A stretch of DNA of 37,682 nucleotides from Thermoplasmata archaeon (lineage in GTDB: Archaea; Thermoplasmatota; Thermoplasmata; Methanomassiliicoccales; Methanomethylophilaceae): NCBI GenBank assembly GCA_015063165.1, contig SUSZ01000022.1, positions 1 through 37,682 of the forward strand, written 5' to 3'. Position 1 is the stretch's first letter; the number at the start of each line of letters is the position of its first letter. A program made the translations under genes and the position numbers. The notes under the pieces were generated by a model. It saw nothing but the letters and a program-made list of their open reading frames with translations. It did not search any database and was not told where the DNA came from. Positions 12,648 to 33,924 of this stretch are shown in pieces.

Positions 12648-12680
12648 ATAGTAAAATAATAAATGCGCTATCACACCATC

Positions 12681-13853
12681 ATGAAAAGAATAGAACAGGG
12701 CGGAAGCCGCTCGATAGAGACCGTGCTGATACACGGAGGAAACCAGATCGACGAGAGAACGGGAGCCGTCAACGTGCCTATCTACCAGACGTCCACATAC
12801 ATGCAAGACGGGCTGGGACGCAACAGGGGGTTCGAGTATTCCCGCACAGGCAATCCCACGAGGAAAGTCCTGGAGGACCTCATTGCGGAGCTGGAAGGAG
12901 GCGTGGCAGGATTCGCATTCGCTTCCGGCATGGCAGCGATAACGACCGTGCTGTCGCTGTTCAGGTCCGGAGACAGGATACTGATATCCAGGAACGTCTA
13001 CGGCGGGACCTACCGCGTCCTGGACAAAGTGTTCAGCAGCTTCGGGATAAGATACTCCATCCTCGATTCGGAGGACCCGGAGTCGCTGGAGAGATCCATT
13101 GGCGACGACGTCAAGGCCATTCTGCTGGAGAGCCCGGCGAACCCGCTCATGTCAGTGACGGACATCAGAGCGTTCTCCGAGGTCGCGCACAGGCACGGAG
13201 TCAAGGTCATCGTGGACAACACCTTCATGACCCCGTACCTCCAGCGCCCTCTGGAGCTCGGGGCGGACATCGTCGTGCACAGCGGGACCAAATACCTGGG
13301 AGGCCACAGCGACCTGGTCGCCGGGCTGGCCATCGTCAACGACGCTGAGACCGCAGAGAGGATGGCGTTCCTCCAGAACGCGACCGGCGGAATCCTGCAG
13401 CCCTTCGACTCCTTCCTGCTCATACGCGGGATCAAGACCCTCTCTGTGAGGATGGATAGACACGTCCAGAACGCGGAGGCGATCGCCAGATATCTGCAGT
13501 CCAGCGAGGACGTCTCCCGGATCCACTACCCGGGGATGGAATCCGACCCAGGATACGCCGTGAACTCAAGACAGGCAAAGAACGGAGGGGCCATGATCTC
13601 TTTTGAGCTCACCGAGAACCACGACCTGAACAGGTTCTTCGAATCCCTGGAGCTCGTCTCTCTAGCGGAGAGCCTCGGAGGCGTGGAGTCACTGGTATGC
13701 CACCCGTCCTCCATGACCCATGCGTCCATTCCGGAGGACATCAGGAAGGCCGTAGGGATAAGCGAGCGCCTCATACGCCTGTCGCCCGGGATCGAGAGCG
13801 TCGACGACATAATCGCCGACCTCGATAACGCCATGAAGAGGTCCAGGACATGA
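12681..13853 (+). CDS. mccB: Cystathionine gamma-lyase/gamma-synthase (PLP)
   Basis: Cys/Met-metabolism PLP enzyme of 390 residues. Visible are the phosphate-binding YSRTGNPTR (53-61), SGMAAI, the Asp that binds the pyridine nitrogen in VDNTFMTPYLQRP, and the Schiff-base lysine K204 in SGTKYLGGHSD. GGILQPFDSFLLIRGIKTL is typical of gamma-lyases/synthases rather than the longer O-acetylhomoserine sulfhydrylases. Sequence alone does not separate cystathionine gamma-lyase from gamma-synthase. The next gene is an MccA-like cystathionine beta-synthase and overlaps by 4 bases (ATGA), as in the Bacillus mccAB pair for reverse transsulfuration, so I favour gamma-lyase: cystathionine to cysteine and 2-oxobutyrate. 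Start chosen at 12681; an ATG at 12663 is less likely. Confidence 0.82.
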   Translation: MKRIEQGGSRSIETVLIHGGNQIDERTGAVNVPIYQTSTYMQDGLGRNRGFEYSRTGNPTRKVLEDLIAELEGGVAGFAFASGMAAITTVLSLFRSGDRILISRNVYGGTYRVLDKVFSSFGIRYSILDSEDPESLERSIGDDVKAILLESPANPLMSVTDIRAFSEVAHRHGVKVIVDNTFMTPYLQRPLELGADIVVHSGTKYLGGHSDLVAGLAIVNDAETAERMAFLQNATGGILQPFDSFLLIRGIKTLSVRMDRHVQNAEAIARYLQSSEDVSRIHYPGMESDPGYAVNSRQAKNGGAMISFELTENHDLNRFFESLELVSLAESLGGVESLVCHPSSMTHASIPEDIRKAVGISERLIRLSPGIESVDDIIADLDNAMKRSRT

Positions 13854-14761
13854 CCCTGTACTCATCTGTGGGCGAAATGATCGGGGAGACCCCCCTGCTG
13901 GAGCTCAGGAACATGGGATATCCCGAAGGGGTCAGGGTCTTCGCCAAGCTGGAGCTGTCGAATCCGGCCGGGAGCGTGAAGGACCGCGTCGGGGAATACA
14001 TGATCAGGGACGCCGAGGAGAAAGGTCTGCTGAAAAAAGGGTCCACGATAGTCGAGGCCACAGCAGGGAACACCGGCATCGGGATAGCGCTCGCGGCGCT
14101 CGGCAGGGGTTACAACGTGATATTCACCGTCCCCACGAAGTTCTCGGAGGAAAAGCAGACGATAATGAGGGCCCTAGGCGCGAAGATCGTTAACACACCG
14201 AAGGAGAAGGGCATGCTGGGCGCGGTCGCCGAGGCGGAGAAGATCAGATCCGGGATTCCCGGGTCGGTGTCCTTGAAGCAGTTCGAGAACATGAGCAACC
14301 CCCGCTGCCATTTCGAAACCACAGGGCCGGAGATATACCGCGACCTAGACGGGAAGGTCGACTATGCCGTCATGGGGGCGGGCAGCGGAGGCACGTTCTC
14401 CGGCGTGGTCGGATACCTCAAGAGCAGGAATCCGAACATCAAAAGCGTCCTGGCAGACCCCGTCGGCTCCATCATCGGAGGAGGGGAGAAGTCGGAGTAC
14501 TCCATAGAAGGGATTGGCAACGACTTCATCGCCAAGACCATGGACACGTCGCTGATCGACATGGTCTACAAGGTGAGAGACAGCGAGGCTTTCGACATGT
14601 GCAGGCGCCTCGCCCTGAGAGAAGGGATCCTAGCCGGACAATCCTCAGGAGCCGCTCTCGTCGCGGTGGAAAGGCTGGCGAAGGACGTCGGGAAAGGCAA
14701 CATCGTCACTATCCTTCCAGACCGCGGGGACAGGTATCTGAGCAAAGGGCTATTCTCCTGA
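13850..14761 (+). CDS. mccA: MccA-like cystathionine beta-synthase / cysteine synthase
   Basis: Fold-type II PLP enzyme of 303 residues. The PLP lysine is K44 in NPAGSVKDR, and the Gly-rich phosphate loop is GSGGTFSG. The substrate loop reads EATAGNTG (69-76) instead of EPTSGNTG, and ADPVGSII with EGIGNDFI follows. These are features of the MccA/CBS branch, whereas the paralogue at 33930 has the CysK version. It probably condenses a serine-type substrate with homocysteine to cystathionine, which the upstream partner cleaves. It lacks the haem and CBS domains of eukaryotic enzymes. Translation is coupled to the preceding gene by an ATGA overlap. A plain cysteine synthase activity cannot be excluded. 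Confidence 0.8.
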   Translation: MTLYSSVGEMIGETPLLELRNMGYPEGVRVFAKLELSNPAGSVKDRVGEYMIRDAEEKGLLKKGSTIVEATAGNTGIGIALAALGRGYNVIFTVPTKFSEEKQTIMRALGAKIVNTPKEKGMLGAVAEAEKIRSGIPGSVSLKQFENMSNPRCHFETTGPEIYRDLDGKVDYAVMGAGSGGTFSGVVGYLKSRNPNIKSVLADPVGSIIGGGEKSEYSIEGIGNDFIAKTMDTSLIDMVYKVRDSEAFDMCRRLALREGILAGQSSGAALVAVERLAKDVGKGNIVTILPDRGDRYLSKGLFS

Positions 14762-14817: not shown

Positions 14818-15285
14818 ATGGCAAGCGTGATTGTATCCACGAAATCTCGGTATGCCCTTCGCATGTTGGTCGACATCGCCGCATTCCAGGATGCTGGCAA
14901 GGTCAAAATCAAAGACATCTCCTCCCGTCAGGACATCTCGGTGAAGTATCTCGAGCAGATCATCTCCGTCCTGTCGAAAAGCGACATCGTGAAAGGGGAG
15001 AGGGGCCCCCAGGGAGGCTATGTACTCACCCGCCCTGCCTCGAAGATAACCGTGGCCGAGGTCGTCACCCAGATCGAGGGGAGCATATCCCCCGCTCCCT
15101 GCATAAAGGAGGACGGGGTGGACTGCGAAAGGAAGGACCGCTGCACCACCCTGGACATGTGGATGAGGATCTGGAAGGCCGTCATGGACATCATGGAGAG
15201 CACCACCATCCAGGACCTGTTGGACGATGCCAACTCCAAGGGGATCATAAGGATCCAGGACATCGAGCCCGAGTACATAATCTGA
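14818..15285 (+). CDS. Rrf2-family regulator with Cys triad (CymR/IscR-like)
   Basis: A 155-residue transcription factor. The N-terminal winged helix (VSTKSRYALRMLVDIA, IKDISSRQDISVKYLEQIISVLSK, GPQGGYVLTRP) is a textbook Rrf2 domain. A dimerisation helix and three cysteines follow (C95, C103, C109; spacing x7 and x5), close to the IscR/RsrR cluster-binding triad, so an Fe-S cluster or Cys-based sensing is plausible. It follows the mccBA-like pair, as CymR is tied to cysteine synthase and mccBA in Bacillus. I infer that it reports cysteine or Fe-S status and may read one of the two palindromes in this window. A near-paralogue lies at 34861 behind a second cysteine synthase. Confidence 0.88.
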   Translation: MASVIVSTKSRYALRMLVDIAAFQDAGKVKIKDISSRQDISVKYLEQIISVLSKSDIVKGERGPQGGYVLTRPASKITVAEVVTQIEGSISPAPCIKEDGVDCERKDRCTTLDMWMRIWKAVMDIMESTTIQDLLDDANSKGIIRIQDIEPEYII

Positions 15286-15301: not shown

Positions 15302-16033
15302 ATGGGAAGATACGACAGGCAGCTCCTGGAATTCTCCCAGGAGGAGCAGGAGAGGATCAGGGGATCGAACGTCGGGATCGTGGGCTGCGGTGGCCTGGGG
15401 ACGTACGTGTCGACCTCGCTAGCTATGGCAGGCATAGGGAAGCTGACGATCATCGACCGCGATGTGCCGGAGATCAGCAACCTTAACAGGCAGTTCGTCT
15501 ACTCCAAGCACGTCCTGACCGGAGAAAGGCCCAGGCCGAAGGCATAGCTGATGGGCGAATGGATCAGGGAGATAAACCCGGAGGTGGAGACCAGCGTCCA
15601 TGTGGGCTCGTTCGGAGACGACACGTCGTGCCTTTTCGACGGCTGCGACGTGATGGTCGACTGCCTCGACTCGATCTCCTGCAGGATGGCCCTGAACGAA
15701 TATTCGGTCAGGACCGGGAAGCCGTTGGTCCATGGGGGCATAGCCGGCCTGACAGGGGAGCTCTGCACGATACTGCCGGGAAGGACCCCCTGCCTCAGAT
15801 GCATGCTAGGCGACATGCCCGATTCTAGCGTCCCCCCGGCGTCCATAGGATCGGTCGTGATGACCATAGGGGCCATGGAATCCACGGAGGTCCTGAAGCT
15901 GATAACGGGCCGCGAAGACCCCTCCCGCGGAAGGTTCTCGTCGTTCGACTTCTCCTGCGGAAGGACGATCCAGATCGAGTTCGGCAAAGACCCGGAATGC
16001 CCTGTGTGCGGATCCAGGCAACAGGAACCCTAA
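15302..16033 (+). CDS. ThiF/MoeB/HesA-family E1-like enzyme with in-frame amber codon
   Basis: Adenylating enzyme that activates the C terminus of ubiquitin-like sulfur carriers. Residues 1-81 contain the ATP site VGCGGLG and the IDRDVPEISNLNRQF strand. Codon 82 is TAG (15545-15547). The same frame then continues without gap through WIREINPEVE, DCLDSISCRMALNE and PLVHGGIAGLTGE to a TAA, giving 243 residues in total. Two CxxC pairs (C164/C167 and C233/C236) form the structural zinc site. The amber falls in the helix after the nucleotide strand (RPKA-x-LMGEW), where homologues simply carry one residue, so readthrough gives a full-length protein. Pyrrolysine insertion is the simplest reading in a TAG-poor genome; a nonsense mutation is the alternative. 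The catalytic Cys of ThiF is not obvious. It lies 16 bases behind the Rrf2 gene. Confidence 0.82.
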
Positions 16034-16038
16034 ACCGT

Positions 16039-17109
16039 TCATATATCGCGAAACGGAACTATGTCGCAGCATCCGCATTCGAGGCACATTGTCCTGCTGG
16101 TCCGAGTGTCCAACGAGTGTCTGGCCATGACCTCCTTCTGCTTCCTGGCCAGGGCTATGATCCTGTCTGAGGAGGCTTTCTCCAGCCTTCCCATAGACTC
16201 CTCCAGGGACTGGCGGTTGATGCCGTTGATGCGGAGAGCCCTGAGCCCGGGAATCACGCCTATCCCGCAGAGCCTCTCCATGACGTCGTACACATCCTGG
16301 TCGGTCTCTCCGAACCCGTAGATGACGTTCGAGGTCACGTTGCCCCTGCCGAATATCCCGACGGCTGCCTCCAGCATCCTCCAGATATTCCCGCGGTCGA
16401 GGTCCGGGCAGACCCTCCCGAATATCTCGTCCGTGGCGCATTGCAGGTTGAGCTTGATCTCGTCGGCCCCGGCGTCCTTCAGAAGCCTCAGATGCGATTC
16501 GGACGAGACGTAAGGCTCTACGCCGATCCTGATGCCGGGATACTCTCTGCGGACGGCCCTGACGAAACCAGCCATGCGCTCCACGGTCGCATCCACGCCT
16601 CCCACCACCCCGCTGGTGAACGACACGGAATCGAAGGAGTAAAGGGACAGGGACTCTCCTATCAACTCTAGGACCCTGGCCTCGCTCATCTCTTTGACCT
16701 CGTCAGCACCGAGGCGGGGGGAAGAGCAGAACGCGCACCTGTATTCGCATCTGGGATCGATGTTGAAGAACGCCTGACCCGGGCAATGCCTAATCACCGG
16801 GATCAGCTCGACCCCCTTCAGGAACAGATCCCCGTCCTTGAAGAGGGACAAGGTGCCATCCCCGTCCACGACGAGATCGAATTCCCCGGAATCGTAGGAG
16901 ATCGGCTTCTTGACCCTGTATCTCCCGAACCTAATCGCGACCGTGTCGAATCCGGCTCCAGGACCTGCTGTGGAGTGCGATACCTTGAAGGGGATCTCGA
17001 ACCCCTCGGGAAGCCTCACGGGCCCGCCCATGGACAGGACGGCCTTCTTCTCTACCATCTCCATGTCGATGGCGCCCGCCGTGTTGTCGGCAACGGATTG
17101 TCCTTTCAT
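16039..17109 (-). CDS. Radical SAM protein of unknown function
   Basis: A 356-residue protein (start MKGQSVADN, 17109). The radical SAM cluster motif is C121-x3-C125-x2-C128 (CEYRCAFC), followed by a TIM-barrel-like region including FTSGVVGGVDATVERM and LNLQCATDEIFGRVCPD, reminiscent of biotin-synthase-related enzymes. The first 110 residues form an additional domain (SHSTAGPGAGFDTVAIRFG). The C terminus holds a further Cys group, C342-x2-C345-x-C347-C348, probably for an auxiliary Fe-S cluster, as in sulfur- or methylthio-transfer enzymes. I recognise no named family. It is divergent from a Cys/Met PLP gene and shares a motif 1 palindrome with it, so a role in sulfur or methyl-sulfur chemistry is a reasonable inference. 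It ends 5 bases from the ThiF-like gene. Confidence 0.8.
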   Translation of the reverse strand: MKGQSVADNTAGAIDMEMVEKKAVLSMGGPVRLPEGFEIPFKVSHSTAGPGAGFDTVAIRFGRYRVKKPISYDSGEFDLVVDGDGTLSLFKDGDLFLKGVELIPVIRHCPGQAFFNIDPRCEYRCAFCSSPRLGADEVKEMSEARVLELIGESLSLYSFDSVSFTSGVVGGVDATVERMAGFVRAVRREYPGIRIGVEPYVSSESHLRLLKDAGADEIKLNLQCATDEIFGRVCPDLDRGNIWRMLEAAVGIFGRGNVTSNVIYGFGETDQDVYDVMERLCGIGVIPGLRALRINGINRQSLEESMGRLEKASSDRIIALARKQKEVMARHSLDTRTSRTMCLECGCCDIVPFRDI

Positions 17110-17144
17110 CGTGTCCACGATTGTCTCAAGTAATATTAAACTAT

Positions 17145-17158
17145 ATTCATATATGAAA
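17145..17158. promoter_or_regulatory. Sulfur motif 1, site 2 (divergent radical SAM / PLP enzyme)
   Basis: ATTCATATATGAAA, part of a near-perfect 22-bp palindrome (17141-17162) with CTAT and ATAG outer arms. It lies 24 bases before the PLP gene at 17182 and about 36 bases before the radical SAM start at 17109 and could control both. A TATA-like ATTAAACTATATT precedes it on the plus strand. Confidence 0.7.
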
Positions 17159-17181
17159 ATAGAATTATTCCAACGAGAAGA

Positions 17182-18369
17182 ATGACGCAGAAAGACTCGG
17201 ATTACGGATTCAGGACAAGAGCCGTCCATGCGGGAAACGACGTAGACAAGGATTCCGGAGCGATCAAAAGACCGATTACCATGGCCAACAGCTACGAGCT
17301 TCCATATGATCCCACCTCCATCAACTGGAGCGATGCGGGCCCGAATCTGTACACCCGCAACGGAGGGACGAACCAGAAATACCTTCAGGAGAGACTGGCT
17401 TCTCTGGAGGGAGGGGAAGACTGCATAGTGCTGGCATCGGGGGTGTCGGCCCTGTCCGCCCTGTTCTTCTCCAATCTAAACTCGGGCGACCACGTGGTGT
17501 TCTCCGATGTCACCTACATCGCGACGTACAGGCTCCTGAACGAGCTCTTCAACAGAAAGTACGGTGTCGAGACGACGATGGTGGACACCTCCGACCCAGA
17601 GAACATCAGGAGGGCGCTGAAGCCGAACACCAGGCTCGTCCACATCGAGACCCCGGGCAACCCCACGCTAAAGATCTCCGACATCGAGGCCATAGCCGGA
17701 ATCTGCCACGAGAGGGGCGTAAAGCTGTCCGTAGACAACACCTTCGCATCCCCGTTCAACCAGAGGCCTCTGGAGCACGGCGCCGACTTCTGCGTGGAAT
17801 CGCTGACGAAATATATCAACGGCCATGGGGACGCCATGGGCGGGGCGATAATAGGTCGCAGGAAGGACCTGGAATCGATCCGCGCCCAGTCCCAGATCAA
17901 TCTCGGAGGGGTCATCAGCCCTTTCAACGCATGGCTGATCATGAGAGGGTCCGTGACGCTCCCTCTGAGGATGAAGGCCCACAACGAGAACGCGATGTCG
18001 ATCGCCAGGCATCTGAAGGGTCTTCCCTGCGTCAGCTTCGTGTCGTATCCTGGCCTGGAAGACGACCCTGGGCATAGGATTGCCAGAAAGCAGATGGGCC
18101 CTGGATTCGGAGGGGTCGTGTCCTTCGGGCTCAGGGCGACGCACGACCAGTACAACCTGTTCGTAAGCCGTCTCAGGATCATAGTCTCGGCCGTGTCCCT
18201 GGGCCATGACGAGTCTCTGATCGTGTTCCTCGGCGAGGACGATGAACGTCGCGAACTCTTCGACGAGCACTTCAGAAAGGGATTCCTGAGGTTCAGCGTA
18301 GGGATAGAGGATTCGGAGGACCTCATAGCCGACATAGACCAGGCCCTCGAAGCCGTCGGGCTGCTGTGA
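17182..18369 (+). CDS. Cys/Met-metabolism PLP enzyme, atypical (lyase or sulfhydrylase)
   Basis: A 395-residue fold-type I PLP enzyme of the cystathionine gamma-synthase/methionine gamma-lyase group. The Schiff-base lysine is K210 (LTKYINGHGDAMGG), the pyridine-binding Asp is in SVDNTFASPFNQRP, and GGVISPFNAWLIMRG matches the family. The usual YSRxxNPT phosphate loop reads YTRNGGTNQKY (57-67): the Tyr and Arg are kept but Asn-Pro-Thr is replaced. This makes it divergent from the other two members in the window, and substrate specificity may differ. It could release methanethiol or H2S, or make homocysteine; I cannot decide. It shares its operator with the divergent radical SAM gene. Start at 17182 follows a weak GAGAAG. 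Confidence 0.78.
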   Translation: MTQKDSDYGFRTRAVHAGNDVDKDSGAIKRPITMANSYELPYDPTSINWSDAGPNLYTRNGGTNQKYLQERLASLEGGEDCIVLASGVSALSALFFSNLNSGDHVVFSDVTYIATYRLLNELFNRKYGVETTMVDTSDPENIRRALKPNTRLVHIETPGNPTLKISDIEAIAGICHERGVKLSVDNTFASPFNQRPLEHGADFCVESLTKYINGHGDAMGGAIIGRRKDLESIRAQSQINLGGVISPFNAWLIMRGSVTLPLRMKAHNENAMSIARHLKGLPCVSFVSYPGLEDDPGHRIARKQMGPGFGGVVSFGLRATHDQYNLFVSRLRIIVSAVSLGHDESLIVFLGEDDERRELFDEHFRKGFLRFSVGIEDSEDLIADIDQALEAVGLL

Positions 18370-18416
18370 CCACCTGTCGAGGGCATCCCTCCGGCGCCAT
18401 TCCCAGAGGGCTTCCT

Positions 18417-19043
18417 TCAATAGACCCGCCTTATGCTCCTGACGCACTCGTCGACCACGGAATCGATGTCGATGGCGTCCTGCATCTCCGCGACCTTCTC
18501 CACCTTGGCCTCCGTCACCGGCCCTATTGGCACCGCCGCGCACCCGGAGGTCTTCATGATGGAGATGTCGAACGTGCCTATGCGCTTCGCGATTGCGATG
18601 ACCTCTGTCTTATCGAGACCGATGAGCGGCCTGAGCACAGGGAAATCCAGCCCGCTCTGCTCCGCCCTGATGTTGGTCAGCGTCTGGGACGCTACCTGGC
18701 CCAAGGAATCCCCCATCACAATGCCGGAAGCGCCCTGGGACATGGCGAACCTCTTGGAGACCCTCTGCATGATGCGCTTGCACATCACGCACTGGTAGTG
18801 CGAGTCGCAGTTCTCCTTGATTATCCTCTGGTTCCTTCCGTGGTCGGCGACGAACACGGGGAACTCCTTCCTTGTATAGCGCTCCAGCTGCTCGGCTATC
18901 CGGATCACCTTCTCGAGATCCTTCGGGTCGCCGAACTCACCGTTGCTCATGTGCAGGAGGACGACATCCGCCCCGGCTTCTGACACGAGATAAGAGGCCA
19001 CCGGGGAGTCTATCCCGCCTGATACGAGAGATACCGCCTTCAT
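18417..19043 (-). CDS. thiI: Stand-alone PP-loop ATPase domain of ThiI (tRNA s4U synthesis)
   Basis: A 208-residue protein corresponding to the adenylating half of ThiI. The PP-loop SGGIDSPVA is intact (residues 8-16), MGDSLGQVASQT and RPLIGLDKTEVI follow as in ThiI. Three cysteines (C85 and C88 in QCVMC, C168 in TSGCAA) are spaced as I recall for the three cysteines of the Methanococcus maripaludis ThiI (265, 268, 348), proposed to bind an Fe-S cluster that handles sulfide-derived sulfur. No rhodanese domain is present, as in other methanogens. The THUMP half is encoded by the next gene upstream in the same operon, ending 4 bases before this start. The pair should make 4-thiouridine at tRNA position 8. 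Confidence 0.87.
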   Translation of the reverse strand: MKAVSLVSGGIDSPVASYLVSEAGADVVLLHMSNGEFGDPKDLEKVIRIAEQLERYTRKEFPVFVADHGRNQRIIKENCDSHYQCVMCKRIMQRVSKRFAMSQGASGIVMGDSLGQVASQTLTNIRAEQSGLDFPVLRPLIGLDKTEVIAIAKRIGTFDISIMKTSGCAAVPIGPVTEAKVEKVAEMQDAIDIDSVVDECVRSIRRVY

Positions 19044-19047
19044 GGCA

Positions 19048-19920
19048 TCACACCCTATGGTAGACGACGTCTATGGCCTGAGCGTCGCCCGATTCCATCT
19101 GCGACAGTATCCCGTCTATAGCCGCGTCGTTCATGCCTATGGTGGGAACAAACACCGGAAGCCTGGATTCCCCGATCGCTTCCAGCTGGTCGAGAGAGCA
19201 TCCATTCACTAACCCGAGAATCCTGTCGGGGACTTCGTCGCCCTCGCCCAGCGTCCTCAGATGAGGATCGTATCTCTCCAATATCGGGATTCCATAGTCG
19301 CCGCATACGGTCACCTTGCACCCCCTCTTCATCATGAGCCATGCAGACACGAGACTACGTCTGTCGTCCACATACGCCAAGACGTGTCCCTGACTTCCGA
19401 GGGGGAGGCCGGCATGGCACGCTATGTACGAGGTGAAGATGTACGCCCTGTTCGACCTGACCTCTACGAACACCGTCTTGTCGGGGTCGGTAAGATCCAC
19501 CCTGATTCCCTTGGAAGAATTGGCCTCGAGGACGGCCGATCCGACCTCCCTCTTAAGATCCAGGCTTGTGAACGGATACACGTCGCTGTCTCTCCTGGCA
19601 TCGACCGCGAACGTGTCGCCCTGGATCAGCAGCTCCTGCGATATCCAGGAAGCAGTCCGCTTTATCTCCTCAAGAGAAGCGGCGCATTTCGTAGCCACCG
19701 ATACCGACGATATCCCGAAGACCCTCTTCAGCGATGCTATGGCCGCCTGAACATCATCCGTCTCGACGTACAGCCTTGAGTTCGCTATCGATACGACGGC
19801 TTCCACCGAGTCTTTGGCCAGCATGTCCATGATGTTGCGCTTGAGCATGCCTTCGAACCTGCGCCTTACAGGATCGCTCTTGAGCCCGATCTCGCTGTAT
19901 CTCACCAATATCGTCTCCAC
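19048..19920 (-). CDS. THUMP-domain ThiI partner with degenerate PP-loop
   Basis: Starts at a likely GTG at 19920 (VETILVRYSEIGLKS); an ATG at 19941 is the alternative. Residues about 1-165 are the NFLD plus THUMP RNA-binding region of ThiI (RYSEIGLKSDPVRRRFE, VRVDLTDPDKTVFVEVR-like strands, LPLGSQGHVLAYV). Where ThiI normally has LSGGIDSPVA, this protein reads VDDRRSLVSA, followed by the expected WLMMKRGCKV. The PP-loop is therefore degenerate while the domain outline persists. The active PP-loop is on the separate downstream gene. I infer a heteromeric ThiI with this subunit binding tRNA. The operon start lies close to the motif 1 palindrome at 19971, shared with mmp8 on the other strand. 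Confidence 0.8.
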   Translation of the reverse strand: METILVRYSEIGLKSDPVRRRFEGMLKRNIMDMLAKDSVEAVVSIANSRLYVETDDVQAAIASLKRVFGISSVSVATKCAASLEEIKRTASWISQELLIQGDTFAVDARRDSDVYPFTSLDLKREVGSAVLEANSSKGIRVDLTDPDKTVFVEVRSNRAYIFTSYIACHAGLPLGSQGHVLAYVDDRRSLVSAWLMMKRGCKVTVCGDYGIPILERYDPHLRTLGEGDEVPDRILGLVNGCSLDQLEAIGESRLPVFVPTIGMNDAAIDGILSQMESGDAQAIDVVYHRV

Positions 19921-19970
19921 ATGATCACCACGGTTACGCACCAGCCTAATCCTGAGCCGTTATATATTTA

Positions 19971-19984
19971 TTTCCTATATGAAA
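19971..19984. promoter_or_regulatory. Sulfur motif 1, site 3 (divergent THUMP/ThiI and mmp8)
   Basis: TTTCCTATATGAAA, one mismatch from the consensus and identical to site 6. It follows a TATA-like TTATATATTT (19960-19969) and therefore covers the expected transcription start of mmp8. It also lies about 50 bases upstream of the THUMP gene start on the other strand. Confidence 0.68.
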
Positions 19985-20002
19985 TTAGTATATTGTGATG
20001 CT

Positions 20003-20857
20003 ATGACGACAGGCCACGGAAAGCATGTGTTCGATGCCATCGGGATGACGAGAGTGGTCATCCAGGACGGCAAGGTCGTATCGGTCGGAAAGCCGGAGCT
20101 GAAGTACTGCCCCCTGTTCAAGAAGTTCAGGGGAATGGACGAGATAACCCCAGAAATGGTAAAAGAGAACATCGAGTTCCGCATCAAGGACTTCGGGTTC
20201 TGCACCGAGAACAGGGTCGTCCGTGCCGACGACTACATCACGTTCGGGGTTTCGGAGATACTGAGCACGTCTCTGGAGAAGGGAAAGATAGATGCCGCCG
20301 TGATTGCAGCCGACGGGTGCGGGACCGCGGTGATAACGGACCCCTACATCCTCCAAGGGCTCTGCGGAAGGATCTCCGGACTGGTCGAGACATCCCCTCT
20401 GAAGGTAGTGCTCGACGCCGTGGGCAGGGACAATGTCGTCGATCCCGAGACCGTTCCCGTGAACATGGTTGAAGGGTCCATCCTGGCGGACAGGAAAGGG
20501 CACAAGAGATTCTCAGTCACAGTCTGCAAGCCGGAGGACGCAGTCAGGATAAGGGAGCTGTTCGGCGACCGGGCGATTATCGTCGGTGTCCACACCAGCC
20601 ACATAACCCGCTGCGGTGTCGAGACGATGTTCGACTGCTGCGATTTCCTGACCGCCTGCGGATCGAGATGGACCAGGGAGGTCGCCAAGGAGAGAGGGGT
20701 GCTCGTCGCAGGCAACAAGGTGGAGATCTTCGGAATCACGAACATCGGAAAGGAACTCGTCCTGGACAAGCTGGAGTCGATAGGCAAGAAGCCCTATTCC
20801 GGCGAACCGCTGGATGAGCCGAAGCCGCTTCTGGAATGGAGCCGATCCATGCGGTAA
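20003..20857 (+). CDS. Methanogenesis marker protein 8 (DUF2099)
   Basis: A 284-residue protein of the DUF2099/TIGR03275 family, found almost only in methanogens and of unknown biochemical function. Recognisable family segments are HVFDAIGMTRVVIQDGK, KYCPLFKKFRG, MVKENIEFRIKDFGFCT, DDYITFGVSEIL, AVIAADGCGTAVITDP, RISGLVETSPL and FDCCDFLTACGSRW. It contains several conserved Cys but no classical cluster motif. I start at 20003 because a TATA box at about 19960-19969 predicts transcription from around 19990, downstream of the alternative ATG at 19979, which itself lies in the palindrome. The gene is divergent from the ThiI pair and appears to be part of the motif 1 sulfur regulon, a new hint that its function touches sulfur chemistry. 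Confidence 0.85.
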   Translation: MTTGHGKHVFDAIGMTRVVIQDGKVVSVGKPELKYCPLFKKFRGMDEITPEMVKENIEFRIKDFGFCTENRVVRADDYITFGVSEILSTSLEKGKIDAAVIAADGCGTAVITDPYILQGLCGRISGLVETSPLKVVLDAVGRDNVVDPETVPVNMVEGSILADRKGHKRFSVTVCKPEDAVRIRELFGDRAIIVGVHTSHITRCGVETMFDCCDFLTACGSRWTREVAKERGVLVAGNKVEIFGITNIGKELVLDKLESIGKKPYSGEPLDEPKPLLEWSRSMR

Positions 20858-20870
20858 GAGGGCGTTAATA

Positions 20871-20934
20871 GGAAACTATAGTGATATCGATGATATCGTT
20901 TCCCATTAGGAAAGAAGGAGGGCGAACGTCCTCC
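20871..20934. terminator. Paired hairpins between mmp8 and the aminotransferase
   Basis: GGAAAC (20871-20876) pairs with GTTTCC (20898-20903), enclosing GATATC-GAT-GATATC. A second hairpin GGAGGGC-GAAC-GTCCTCC (20917-20934, one G-T wobble) follows. The elements lie between convergent genes and could terminate both. Two ACTATAGT palindromes flank the structure (20875 and 20946). Confidence 0.5.
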
Positions 20935-20952
20935 GATTACGTCTGACTATAG

Positions 20953-22140
20953 TCAGAAATGCTGGAACGGGACATCGAATCGGCGCTTGAGCCTACCGAT
21001 GCCCTCCAGATTCTTCAGGGCCTTATCCAGCGTGTCCTCATTCTTTGCGAAGTGGAGGCGAGCCAGATTGTTCACGGGCTCCTTGAAGAAGCTCGAGCCT
21101 GGCACCGCCCCGACGCCAACATGACGCGCCAGATCCTCGCAGAACCTCTCGTCGTCATCATACCCGTATTCCGATATGTCGATCAGGACGTAATATGCCC
21201 CTTGGGGAACGTTGTGGGAGATCCCTGCCGCGTCCAGCCCCTCCATGAACAGCTTCCTCTTCGAGGTGTATCTCCTCTGCAGATCCCGATAGTATTCATC
21301 ACCGAAGAGCAGCCCGGGCACGAGGGCCTCCTGCAACGGGGCCGGAGCACCTACGGTGAGGAAGTCGTGGACCTTCCTGACGGTGTCGATTATCTTCGCC
21401 GGTCCGATGACATACCCCAACCTCCATCCGGTTATGGAATACGTCTTCGAAAGCGAAGAGGTGGATATCGTGCGCTCCCACATGCCCGGGAGCGTGGCGA
21501 AATAAGTGTGCTCGTTGGGCTTGTAGAGGATGTGCTCGTACACCTCGTCGGTGACCACGTAGACGTCGTACTCCTCTGCCAGCCTCGCTATCTGAAGGAG
21601 CTCCTGCCTGGTGAACACCTTTCCGCAAGGATTGGAAGGATTGCACAGGATCAGAGCCTTCGGATGCTGCGCGAACGCTGCCTCCAGCTCCTCCAGATCG
21701 AAACGGAAATCAGGCTGGCGCAGCTCGACGTAGATAGGCACAGCGCCAGACAGTATGGTGTCCGCCCCGTAGTTCTCGTAGAACGGGGAGAAGATCACCA
21801 CCCTGTCCCCAGGGTCCACTATGGAAAGCATCACCGAGATCATGGCCTCGGTGCCGCCGCAGGTGACCACGACCTCGGTATCGGGATCTATCCTGCGCCC
21901 CATGAAGCGCGTCTGCTTAGCGGCAAGAGCCTCCCTGAAATTCTGTGCCCCCCAGGTAACCGAGTACTGGTGGGGGCCCTCCCGCGAGACCTCGGCCAGA
22001 CGGTCGAGTATCTCCTTGGGAGGGTCAAAGTCGGGGAATCCTTGGGATAGGTTCACGGCTCCGTACCTGTTGGATATCCTGGTCATCCTGCGTATGACGG
22101 AATCGGTGAACGTTCTCGTCCTTGCTGCCAGTTCGCGCAT
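20953..22140 (-). CDS. Class I aminotransferase, methionine/aromatic type (YbdL-like)
   Basis: PLP aminotransferase of 395 residues. NLSQGFPDFD (30-39) and HQYSVTWGAQNFREAL are the hallmarks of the KAT/glutamine-transaminase branch that includes E. coli YbdL, a methionine aminotransferase. NPSNP (167-171), TDEVYEH and the PLP lysine K232 (SSLSKTYSITGWRLGY) complete the active site, with the substrate carboxylate Arg expected in RLHFAK. It is the second gene of an operon with the PaaK-like ligase (8-base gap) whose promoter carries motif 1. It may interconvert methionine and 2-oxo-4-methylthiobutyrate, or aromatic amino acids and their oxoacids. The 3' end overlaps a TCTGACTATAGTCAGA palindrome. 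Confidence 0.85.
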   Translation of the reverse strand: MRELAARTRTFTDSVIRRMTRISNRYGAVNLSQGFPDFDPPKEILDRLAEVSREGPHQYSVTWGAQNFREALAAKQTRFMGRRIDPDTEVVVTCGGTEAMISVMLSIVDPGDRVVIFSPFYENYGADTILSGAVPIYVELRQPDFRFDLEELEAAFAQHPKALILCNPSNPCGKVFTRQELLQIARLAEEYDVYVVTDEVYEHILYKPNEHTYFATLPGMWERTISTSSLSKTYSITGWRLGYVIGPAKIIDTVRKVHDFLTVGAPAPLQEALVPGLLFGDEYYRDLQRRYTSKRKLFMEGLDAAGISHNVPQGAYYVLIDISEYGYDDDERFCEDLARHVGVGAVPGSSFFKEPVNNLARLHFAKNEDTLDKALKNLEGIGRLKRRFDVPFQHF

Positions 22141-32565: not shown

Positions 32566-32588
32566 TTACCTACTAAAATGATGGGTAA
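32566..32588. promoter_or_regulatory. Sulfur motif 2, site upstream of metY
   Basis: TTACCTAC-N7-ATGGGTAA, with half sites at 32568-32573 and 32581-32586, directly upstream of and touching a TATA-like ATAAATAT (about 32590-32597). The position could block factor binding or support activation. Confidence 0.65.
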
Positions 32589-32628
32589 TTATAAATATCG
32601 TGTTCCTGATGACCAATCAGGAGATTTT

Positions 32629-33924
32629 ATGACCGATAAACCGAAATACAGGCTGGAGACCCTCCAGGTCCACGCCGGACAGGAAAATGCGGACCCCGCT
32701 ACCGATGCCCGCGCCGTTCCGATCTACATGACCACCTCGTATGTATTCAAAGATTCTGCTCAAGCAGCAGGCCGTTTCGCTCTCACAGAGCCCGGAAACA
32801 TCTACACGAGGCTCATGAACCCTACATCCGGCGTCTTCGAAGAGAGGATGGCTGCATTGGAGGGCGGAGTGGCGGCCCTTGCGACGGCTTCAGGGTCCGC
32901 GGCCATCACCTATGCTATACAGAACATAGCCCTGGCAGGAGACCACATCGTATCGTCTACCAACCTGTACGGAGGGACGACCAACCTTCTCGCCAACACC
33001 CTTCGCGAGCAGGGCATAGAGACGACTTTCGTAGACCCTTCCGACCCGGAGAACTTCGCCAAGGCTATCAAGAGCAACACCAAGCTCCTGTACACCGAGT
33101 GCTTGGGCAACCCCAACTCTGATGTCGCAGACCTCGAAGCCATCTCTAAGATCGCTCACGACCACGGCATACCCCTGATCGTGGACAGCACCTTCAGCCC
33201 CCCTTCCATACTCAAGCCTATAGAGCACGGAGCGGACATCGTGGTGCACTCGGCGACCAAATTCATCGGAGGCCACGGCGTCGCCATGGGAGGAGTCATC
33301 GTCGACAGCGGAAACTTCGATTGGGCCCAGAATGACAAGTTCCCGACCCTCTCCAAGCCCAACCCGTCCTACCACGGCATCGTATTCACCGAGGCTGTCG
33401 GGAAAGCCGCTTTCGTCATCAAGATACGCACCACCCTGATGAGGGATCAGGGGGCGGCCATCTCGCCGTTCAACTCTTTCCTCCTGCTCCTGGGACTGGA
33501 GACGCTGTCGCTGCGCACGGAAAGGCACATCGAGAACGCTCTGAAGGTCGTGGAGTTCCTGAAGAACCACCCCCAGGTGGAGAAGGTCAACCATCCGTCT
33601 CTCGAGACCGGGAAGAAGAAGGAGCTCTACGACAGATACTTCCCCCATGGAGCAGGATCGATATTCACCTTCGAGATCAAGGGCGGAGCGGAGGCTGCCA
33701 AGAAGTTCACAGAATCCCTGAAACTGTTCTCCTTGCTCGCCAACGTAGCTGACGTGAAATCCTTGGTGATCCACCCTGCATCGACCACCCATTCCCAGCT
33801 GGACGAGGAGGGCCTCCTGGCCAGCGGCATCAAACCTAACACCGTCCGCCTGTCGATAGGAATCGAACACATAGACGACATCATAGCAGACCTGAAACAA
33901 GGATTCGAAGCGATAAAGGAGTGA
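32629..33924 (+). CDS. metY: O-acetylhomoserine sulfhydrylase
   Basis: Makes homocysteine from O-acetylhomoserine and sulfide with PLP. At 431 residues it has the length of MetY rather than of the 380-400 residue gamma-synthases/lyases. YTRLMNPT (59-66), SGSAAITYAI, SSTNLYGGT, the Asp in IVDSTFSPPSI and the Schiff-base lysine K211 (SATKFIGGHGVAMGG) are all present, as is the long MetY insertion (GNFDWAQNDKFPTLSKPNPSYHG). It fits the acetyl-selective MetA at 11565. The start at 32629 follows CAGGAGA; an ATG at 32578 lies inside the palindrome. It leads a metY-cysK-rrf2 operon. Confidence 0.92.
   Translation: MTDKPKYRLETLQVHAGQENADPATDARAVPIYMTTSYVFKDSAQAAGRFALTEPGNIYTRLMNPTSGVFEERMAALEGGVAALATASGSAAITYAIQNIALAGDHIVSSTNLYGGTTNLLANTLREQGIETTFVDPSDPENFAKAIKSNTKLLYTECLGNPNSDVADLEAISKIAHDHGIPLIVDSTFSPPSILKPIEHGADIVVHSATKFIGGHGVAMGGVIVDSGNFDWAQNDKFPTLSKPNPSYHGIVFTEAVGKAAFVIKIRTTLMRDQGAAISPFNSFLLLLGLETLSLRTERHIENALKVVEFLKNHPQVEKVNHPSLETGKKKELYDRYFPHGAGSIFTFEIKGGAEAAKKFTESLKLFSLLANVADVKSLVIHPASTTHSQLDEEGLLASGIKPNTVRLSIGIEHIDDIIADLKQGFEAIKE

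Follow-up and report, generated by a model that had tools for sequence, protein, structure and literature searches.

An in-frame amber codon in a Methanomethylophilaceae ThiF/MoeB-like gene, very probably read as pyrrolysine

The thiF locus and its product

The window considered here is a stretch of 37,682 nucleotides on contig 36 of a draft Methanomethylophilaceae genome (67 contigs, 2.28 Mb, 99.9% complete). It carries a gene of the ThiF/MoeB family of E1-like adenylyltransferases that opens with ATG, meets TAG at codon 82 and continues in an unbroken frame to a TAA stop at 16031–16033 (Table 1). Reading of the whole ORF reveals neither a second stop nor a frameshift, and the readthrough product gives a single Pfam ThiF match of 188.6 bits that covers residues 4–235 and spans codon 82. 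An earlier sequence-only reading had described just such a gene, complete but for the amber codon and running on as ThiF to TAA, and had also remarked that TAG hardly ever serves as a stop in the window. Both descriptions hold: TAG ends 2 of the 36 genes called (the focal fragment and a gene at 1939–2931), TGA ends 30 and TAA four.

Table 1 Features of the thiF locus, numbered from the first letter of the window; L006–L014 carry orthologues of the focal gene
Feature	Position	Strand	Evidence or remark
Cys/Met metabolism PLP enzyme (cystathionine synthase/lyase type)	12663–13853	+	Pfam, 1.6e-150
CysK-like PLP enzyme	13850–14761	+	Pfam PALP; synteny in L009 and L010; beside thiF in L013 and L014
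Rrf2-family regulator, directly upstream of thiF	14818–15285	+	Pfam Rrf2, 1.1e-38; also upstream in L008, L009 and L010
ThiF/MoeB-family (E1-like adenylyltransferase) gene	15302–16033	+	243 codons with UAG read through, ending in TAA; Pfam, fold, orthologues L006–L014
Codon 80 (AAG), invariant Lys, two residues before TAG	15539–15541	+	K80 column of 18 sequences
In-frame TAG, codon 82, putative pyrrolysine	15545–15547	+	Glu in 8/9 and Asp in 1/9 orthologues
Met84 (ATG), two codons after TAG	15551–15553	+	Met also in several intact orthologues
Radical SAM protein, convergent neighbour	16039–17229	-	Pfam Radical_SAM; beside thiF in L009 and L013

The order CysK-Rrf2-ThiF is kept in L009 and L010, and in part in L008, L013 and L014. 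Its neighbours, a cystathionine-type enzyme, CysK, an Rrf2 regulator and a radical SAM protein, hint that the thiF cluster serves sulfur transfer or cysteine metabolism. The sole ThiS/MoaD-like protein found is encoded on a different contig, at C25:167-352, beside another ThiF-like gene.

The product has the hallmarks of the ThiF/MoeB (E1-like) superfamily: the domain itself, the GxGGLG loop, the catalytic Arg/Lys/Asp residues and the zinc CxxC pairs. An AlphaFold2 model informed by 18 homologues (mean pLDDT 89.9) matches E. coli ThiF (1zud, 1zfn) and MoeB (1jw9) with a TM of about 0.85–0.88. While the focal protein shares with these enzymes the fold, the GxGGLG loop, the invariant Arg/Lys/Asp and two CxxC pairs, it differs from them in sequence (identity about 28–30%) and falls below the cut-offs of both strict NCBIfam equivalogs, scoring 142.7 for ThiF (TIGR02356, cut-off 275.25) and 102.6 for MoeB (TIGR02355, cut-off 376.55). 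GxGGLG, Arg63, Lys80, Asp120/123 and both CxxC pairs do not vary across the 18 sequences, and by homology Lys80 would be the nucleotide-binding lysine of the family. Because it combines a single ThiF domain, a matching predicted fold and these invariant residues, the enzyme looks intact but for the TAG. As the sequence-only reading had supposed, residue 82 is modeled within a helix (residues 80–91), where it is presumably surface-exposed. RNA structure 3′ of the TAG gave no significant signal (z = -1.4, with 20 of 200 shuffles folding equally well); such structure is not required for UAG decoding.

UAG as a sense codon in the genome and in known relatives

The same genome encodes a complete pylTSBCD operon on contig 34, recovered by profile searches at curated cut-offs: PylS scores 255 bits (cut-off 178), PylB 431 (348), PylC 313 (248) and PylD 203 (150). 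The tRNA-Pyl that adjoins the pyl genes has the anticodon CTA, which reads UAG, and the canonical pyrrolysine genes mtmB and mttB of this genome contain in-frame TAG. The sequence-only reading had held that a genome devoid of pyl genes would undo the case for a pyrrolysine protein; that objection falls, because pylS, pylB, pylC, pylD and tRNA-Pyl(CUA) stand together in one complete operon.

Use of TAG was surveyed across about 665 kb, or 29% of the genome, with an ORF caller based on a codon-usage model. Among the 582 ORFs called, TGA ends 492, TAA 59 and TAG 31. The 25 codons after the stop were open and coding-like at 16 of 31 TAG ends, the focal gene among them, versus 37 of the 551 TAA/TGA ends (Fisher p = 2.5e-10). 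Pfam searches of joined frames detected one domain that crosses the TAG, or is split in two by it, in 7 of 19 joins tested: MtmB, MTTB, DUF2099 (methanogenesis marker 8), a nitroreductase, a protein kinase, a Cys/Met PLP sulfhydrylase and the focal ThiF. No domain extended across the stop in any of 35 TAA/TGA joins, where the pairs were two neighbouring genes or had no match; seven against zero has a hypergeometric probability of 2.8e-4, rising to 2.4e-3 when the two canonical methyltransferases are left out. Several high-scoring TAG joins (for example, C34:5249-9016) were not counted, being antisense shadows or in-frame neighbours. Since many TAG ends run on and domains span TAG, with TAA and TGA as controls, UAG, as judged from sequence, acts widely as a sense codon here and not in methyltransferases alone.

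The genes concerned are varied. A methanogenesis marker 8 gene (L052:12526-13386; G000:C40:32526-33389) has TAG in frame at both codon 6 and codon 175, and a TAG-free marker 8 paralogue lies inside the window at 19979–20857. An O-acetylhomoserine sulfhydrylase gene (L072:2584-4005; G000:C5) has its TAG near the C-terminus, which reads ADLD-TAG-AFAKI versus ADLKQGFEAI in the window gene at 32578–33924. Four in-frame TAG codons, with coding-like sequence in between, occur in a gene resembling helix-turn-helix regulators (L059:9396-10796; G000:C28:29393-30796), and large proteins of surface-like and zinc-ribbon type (L084:4984-7785 and L082:5453-8422) also contain in-frame TAG and would be split by a standard caller.

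Comparable genes have been described in the closest relatives. Candidatus Methanomethylophilus alvus has 16 TAG-interrupted genes beyond the methylamine methyltransferases, TAG makes up 1.6% of its stops and half of the candidates have TAG-free homologues; a tolerated change of a sense codon to amber, acting as missense through constitutive suppression, was already proposed by the authors (Borrel et al. 2014, PMC4153887). That organism belongs to the same family of gut methanogens and likewise combines TAG-interrupted conserved genes with few TAG stops, but the genes are different ones, and a ThiF-family protein is absent from Table 7 of that paper. For the ruminal relative ISO4-H5, main-text passages of the genome report give 46 genes with in-frame amber codons, methyltransferases included (Li et al. 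2016, PMC5011839); methanogenesis marker 8 contains amber there as in the focal genome, and ThiF is not among the amber genes that these passages name. The sequence-only reading had called pyrrolysine outside methylamine methyltransferases rarely documented, a view that gives way to these published cases (PMC4153887 and the passages of PMC5011839) and to the many in the focal genome.

Because such genes are numerous both here and in known relatives, the amber codon of thiF is real but unexceptional, and the gene is a further case of the in-frame amber genes published for this family. The genome provides a clean example, with TAA/TGA controls, of gut Methanomethylophilaceae treating UAG largely as a sense codon, with the consequence that standard gene callers cut many proteins of the group. 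Kivenson and colleagues, in Science in 2025, reportedly described an archaeal code in which all TAG codons specify pyrrolysine; if that code applies, TAG use in the focal genome would be an instance of it.

Codon 82 among relatives and a route to Pyl82

The sequence-only reading had asked whether orthologues keep TAG or a sense codon at this position. All nine same-genus orthologues (56–74% identity), none of which has an internal stop, carry a sense codon, GAG or GAA in eight and GAC in one; with TAG at codon 82 in 0 of 9, it is confined to this genome among the species compared. Because the orthologues have Glu or Asp codons there, the TAG is lineage-specific, and it lies one base from GAG, the commonest codon at the site. 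The site is variable: ThiF paralogues further removed carry Val, Asp, His, Gln, Ile or Glu at residue 82. A TGA inside one paralogue, L002, was considered as an internal stop and rejected, being an ordinary stop with a match that runs past the gene end.

Very probably, then, the locus encodes a normal adenylyltransferase of the ThiF/MoeB type, one of whose Glu codons turned into TAG within the lineage, and UAG is read as Pyl, as a nearly neutral by-product. A GAG to TAG change at codon 82 would have arisen in the focal lineage. PylBCD would make pyrrolysine, PylS would charge tRNA-Pyl(CUA) with it, and the constitutive Pyl-tRNA(CUA) would outcompete termination at UAG in many genes, such that full-length ThiF with Pyl82 is produced. 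In essence, the mutation would act as missense (Glu to Pyl) rather than nonsense, and hence persist; amber suppression would have left Pyl82 as a by-product close to neutral, and no catalytic use of Pyl need be supposed. The site varies and lies in a helix, two residues past the invariant Lys80, so the substitution would be tolerated there. We infer that UAG is read in the thiF mRNA, as Pyl, giving a working protein. The original suggestion of a candidate pyrrolysine protein gains support from the pyl operon, the sense-codon orthologues and the lack of further lesions and of accelerated evolution, each checked in silico.

Competing readings of the TAG codon

That thiF is a recent pseudogene, in which TAG terminates, the 81-residue fragment is useless and other lesions have yet to accumulate, appears decidedly unlikely. 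The thiF cluster is accessory, to be sure: thiF of this group is present at full length in about 10–12 of the 31 genomes of the genus, and because it is so patchy its loss is probably tolerable. However, the gene has no frameshift or second stop, the organism appears to suppress UAG genome-wide, and substitution rates, estimated by the Nei-Gojobori method (NG86) against five orthologues, do not point to decay. Nonsynonymous divergence (dN) between focal thiF and the orthologues is 0.19–0.25 vs 0.12–0.26 between intact orthologues, and 3′ of the TAG it is 0.20–0.27 vs 0.20–0.28 for L006 to the others. Such dN values, not raised even after the TAG, show long purifying selection at the level of sequence comparison, and a very recent TAG could not be dated from them. 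Thus neither the inactivating mutations that the sequence-only reading had linked to pseudogenisation nor accelerated evolution or relaxed constraint is found in the focal gene.

A thiF remnant in another assembly might also seem to favor a pseudogene. Positions 15906–21002 of the window correspond to 1790–6887 of contig L005 (G011:C39), a 5.1-kb block at 98.3% identity, and this contig keeps only codons 198–243 of thiF, without 1–197. L005, labelled Methanomethylophilaceae and from roe-deer rumen, is the sole near-identical sequence; elsewhere, in sampled regions, G011 and the focal genome are mostly 66–83% identical. The block is best read, on this pattern of identity, as recently transferred between species or as part of a mis-binned contig, with its left edge cutting thiF. 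Decay of a resident gene was accordingly rejected for the remnant, which has the look of a boundary left by transfer or binning, the edge of a near-identical block inside an otherwise diverged genome. L005 is silent on the TAG allele because its part of thiF starts at about codon 198.

An assembly or sequencing error, with G as the true base at 15545 and hence GAG as in the orthologues, is very improbable: the single-base distance from the orthologous codon and the draft state of the assembly would allow it, but the same assembly has many domain-interrupting in-frame TAG codons and no such TAA or TGA, and random errors would not favor TAG.

Only the slimmest chance attaches to a split gene, in which ribosomes stop at UAG and restart at ATG 15551, directly after TAG-CTG, and chains 1–81 and 84–243 assemble, since Met84 is present in the intact orthologues L007–L010 and so is ancestral rather than evolved for re-initiation, no ribosome-binding site is seen just upstream of ATG 15551, and a break in helix 80–91, next to Lys80, would sever the nucleotide site.

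Equally hard to credit is a function for Pyl82 of its own, such as sulfur-carrier activation tied to pyrrolysine or methylamine supply. Selection for Pyl as a functional residue would be marked by conservation of TAG across species, and the same-genus orthologues show none at this codon. The comparison with MtmB and MttB is instructive: the same machinery would decode UAG as Pyl in all three, but in the methyltransferases Pyl is conserved and catalytic, whereas in the focal ThiF it falls at a variable Glu/Asp site with TAG private to one species. This private Glu to Pyl change in an E1-like enzyme is a testable target for the question of neutrality. Elsewhere in the genus, a ThiF paralogue of a single-contig genome (L034 1501-2169; G030) has an in-frame TAG of its own at a different, non-conserved site, with Glu, Gln or some other residue there in relatives; Pyl at a fixed site is evidently not needed in this ThiF family.
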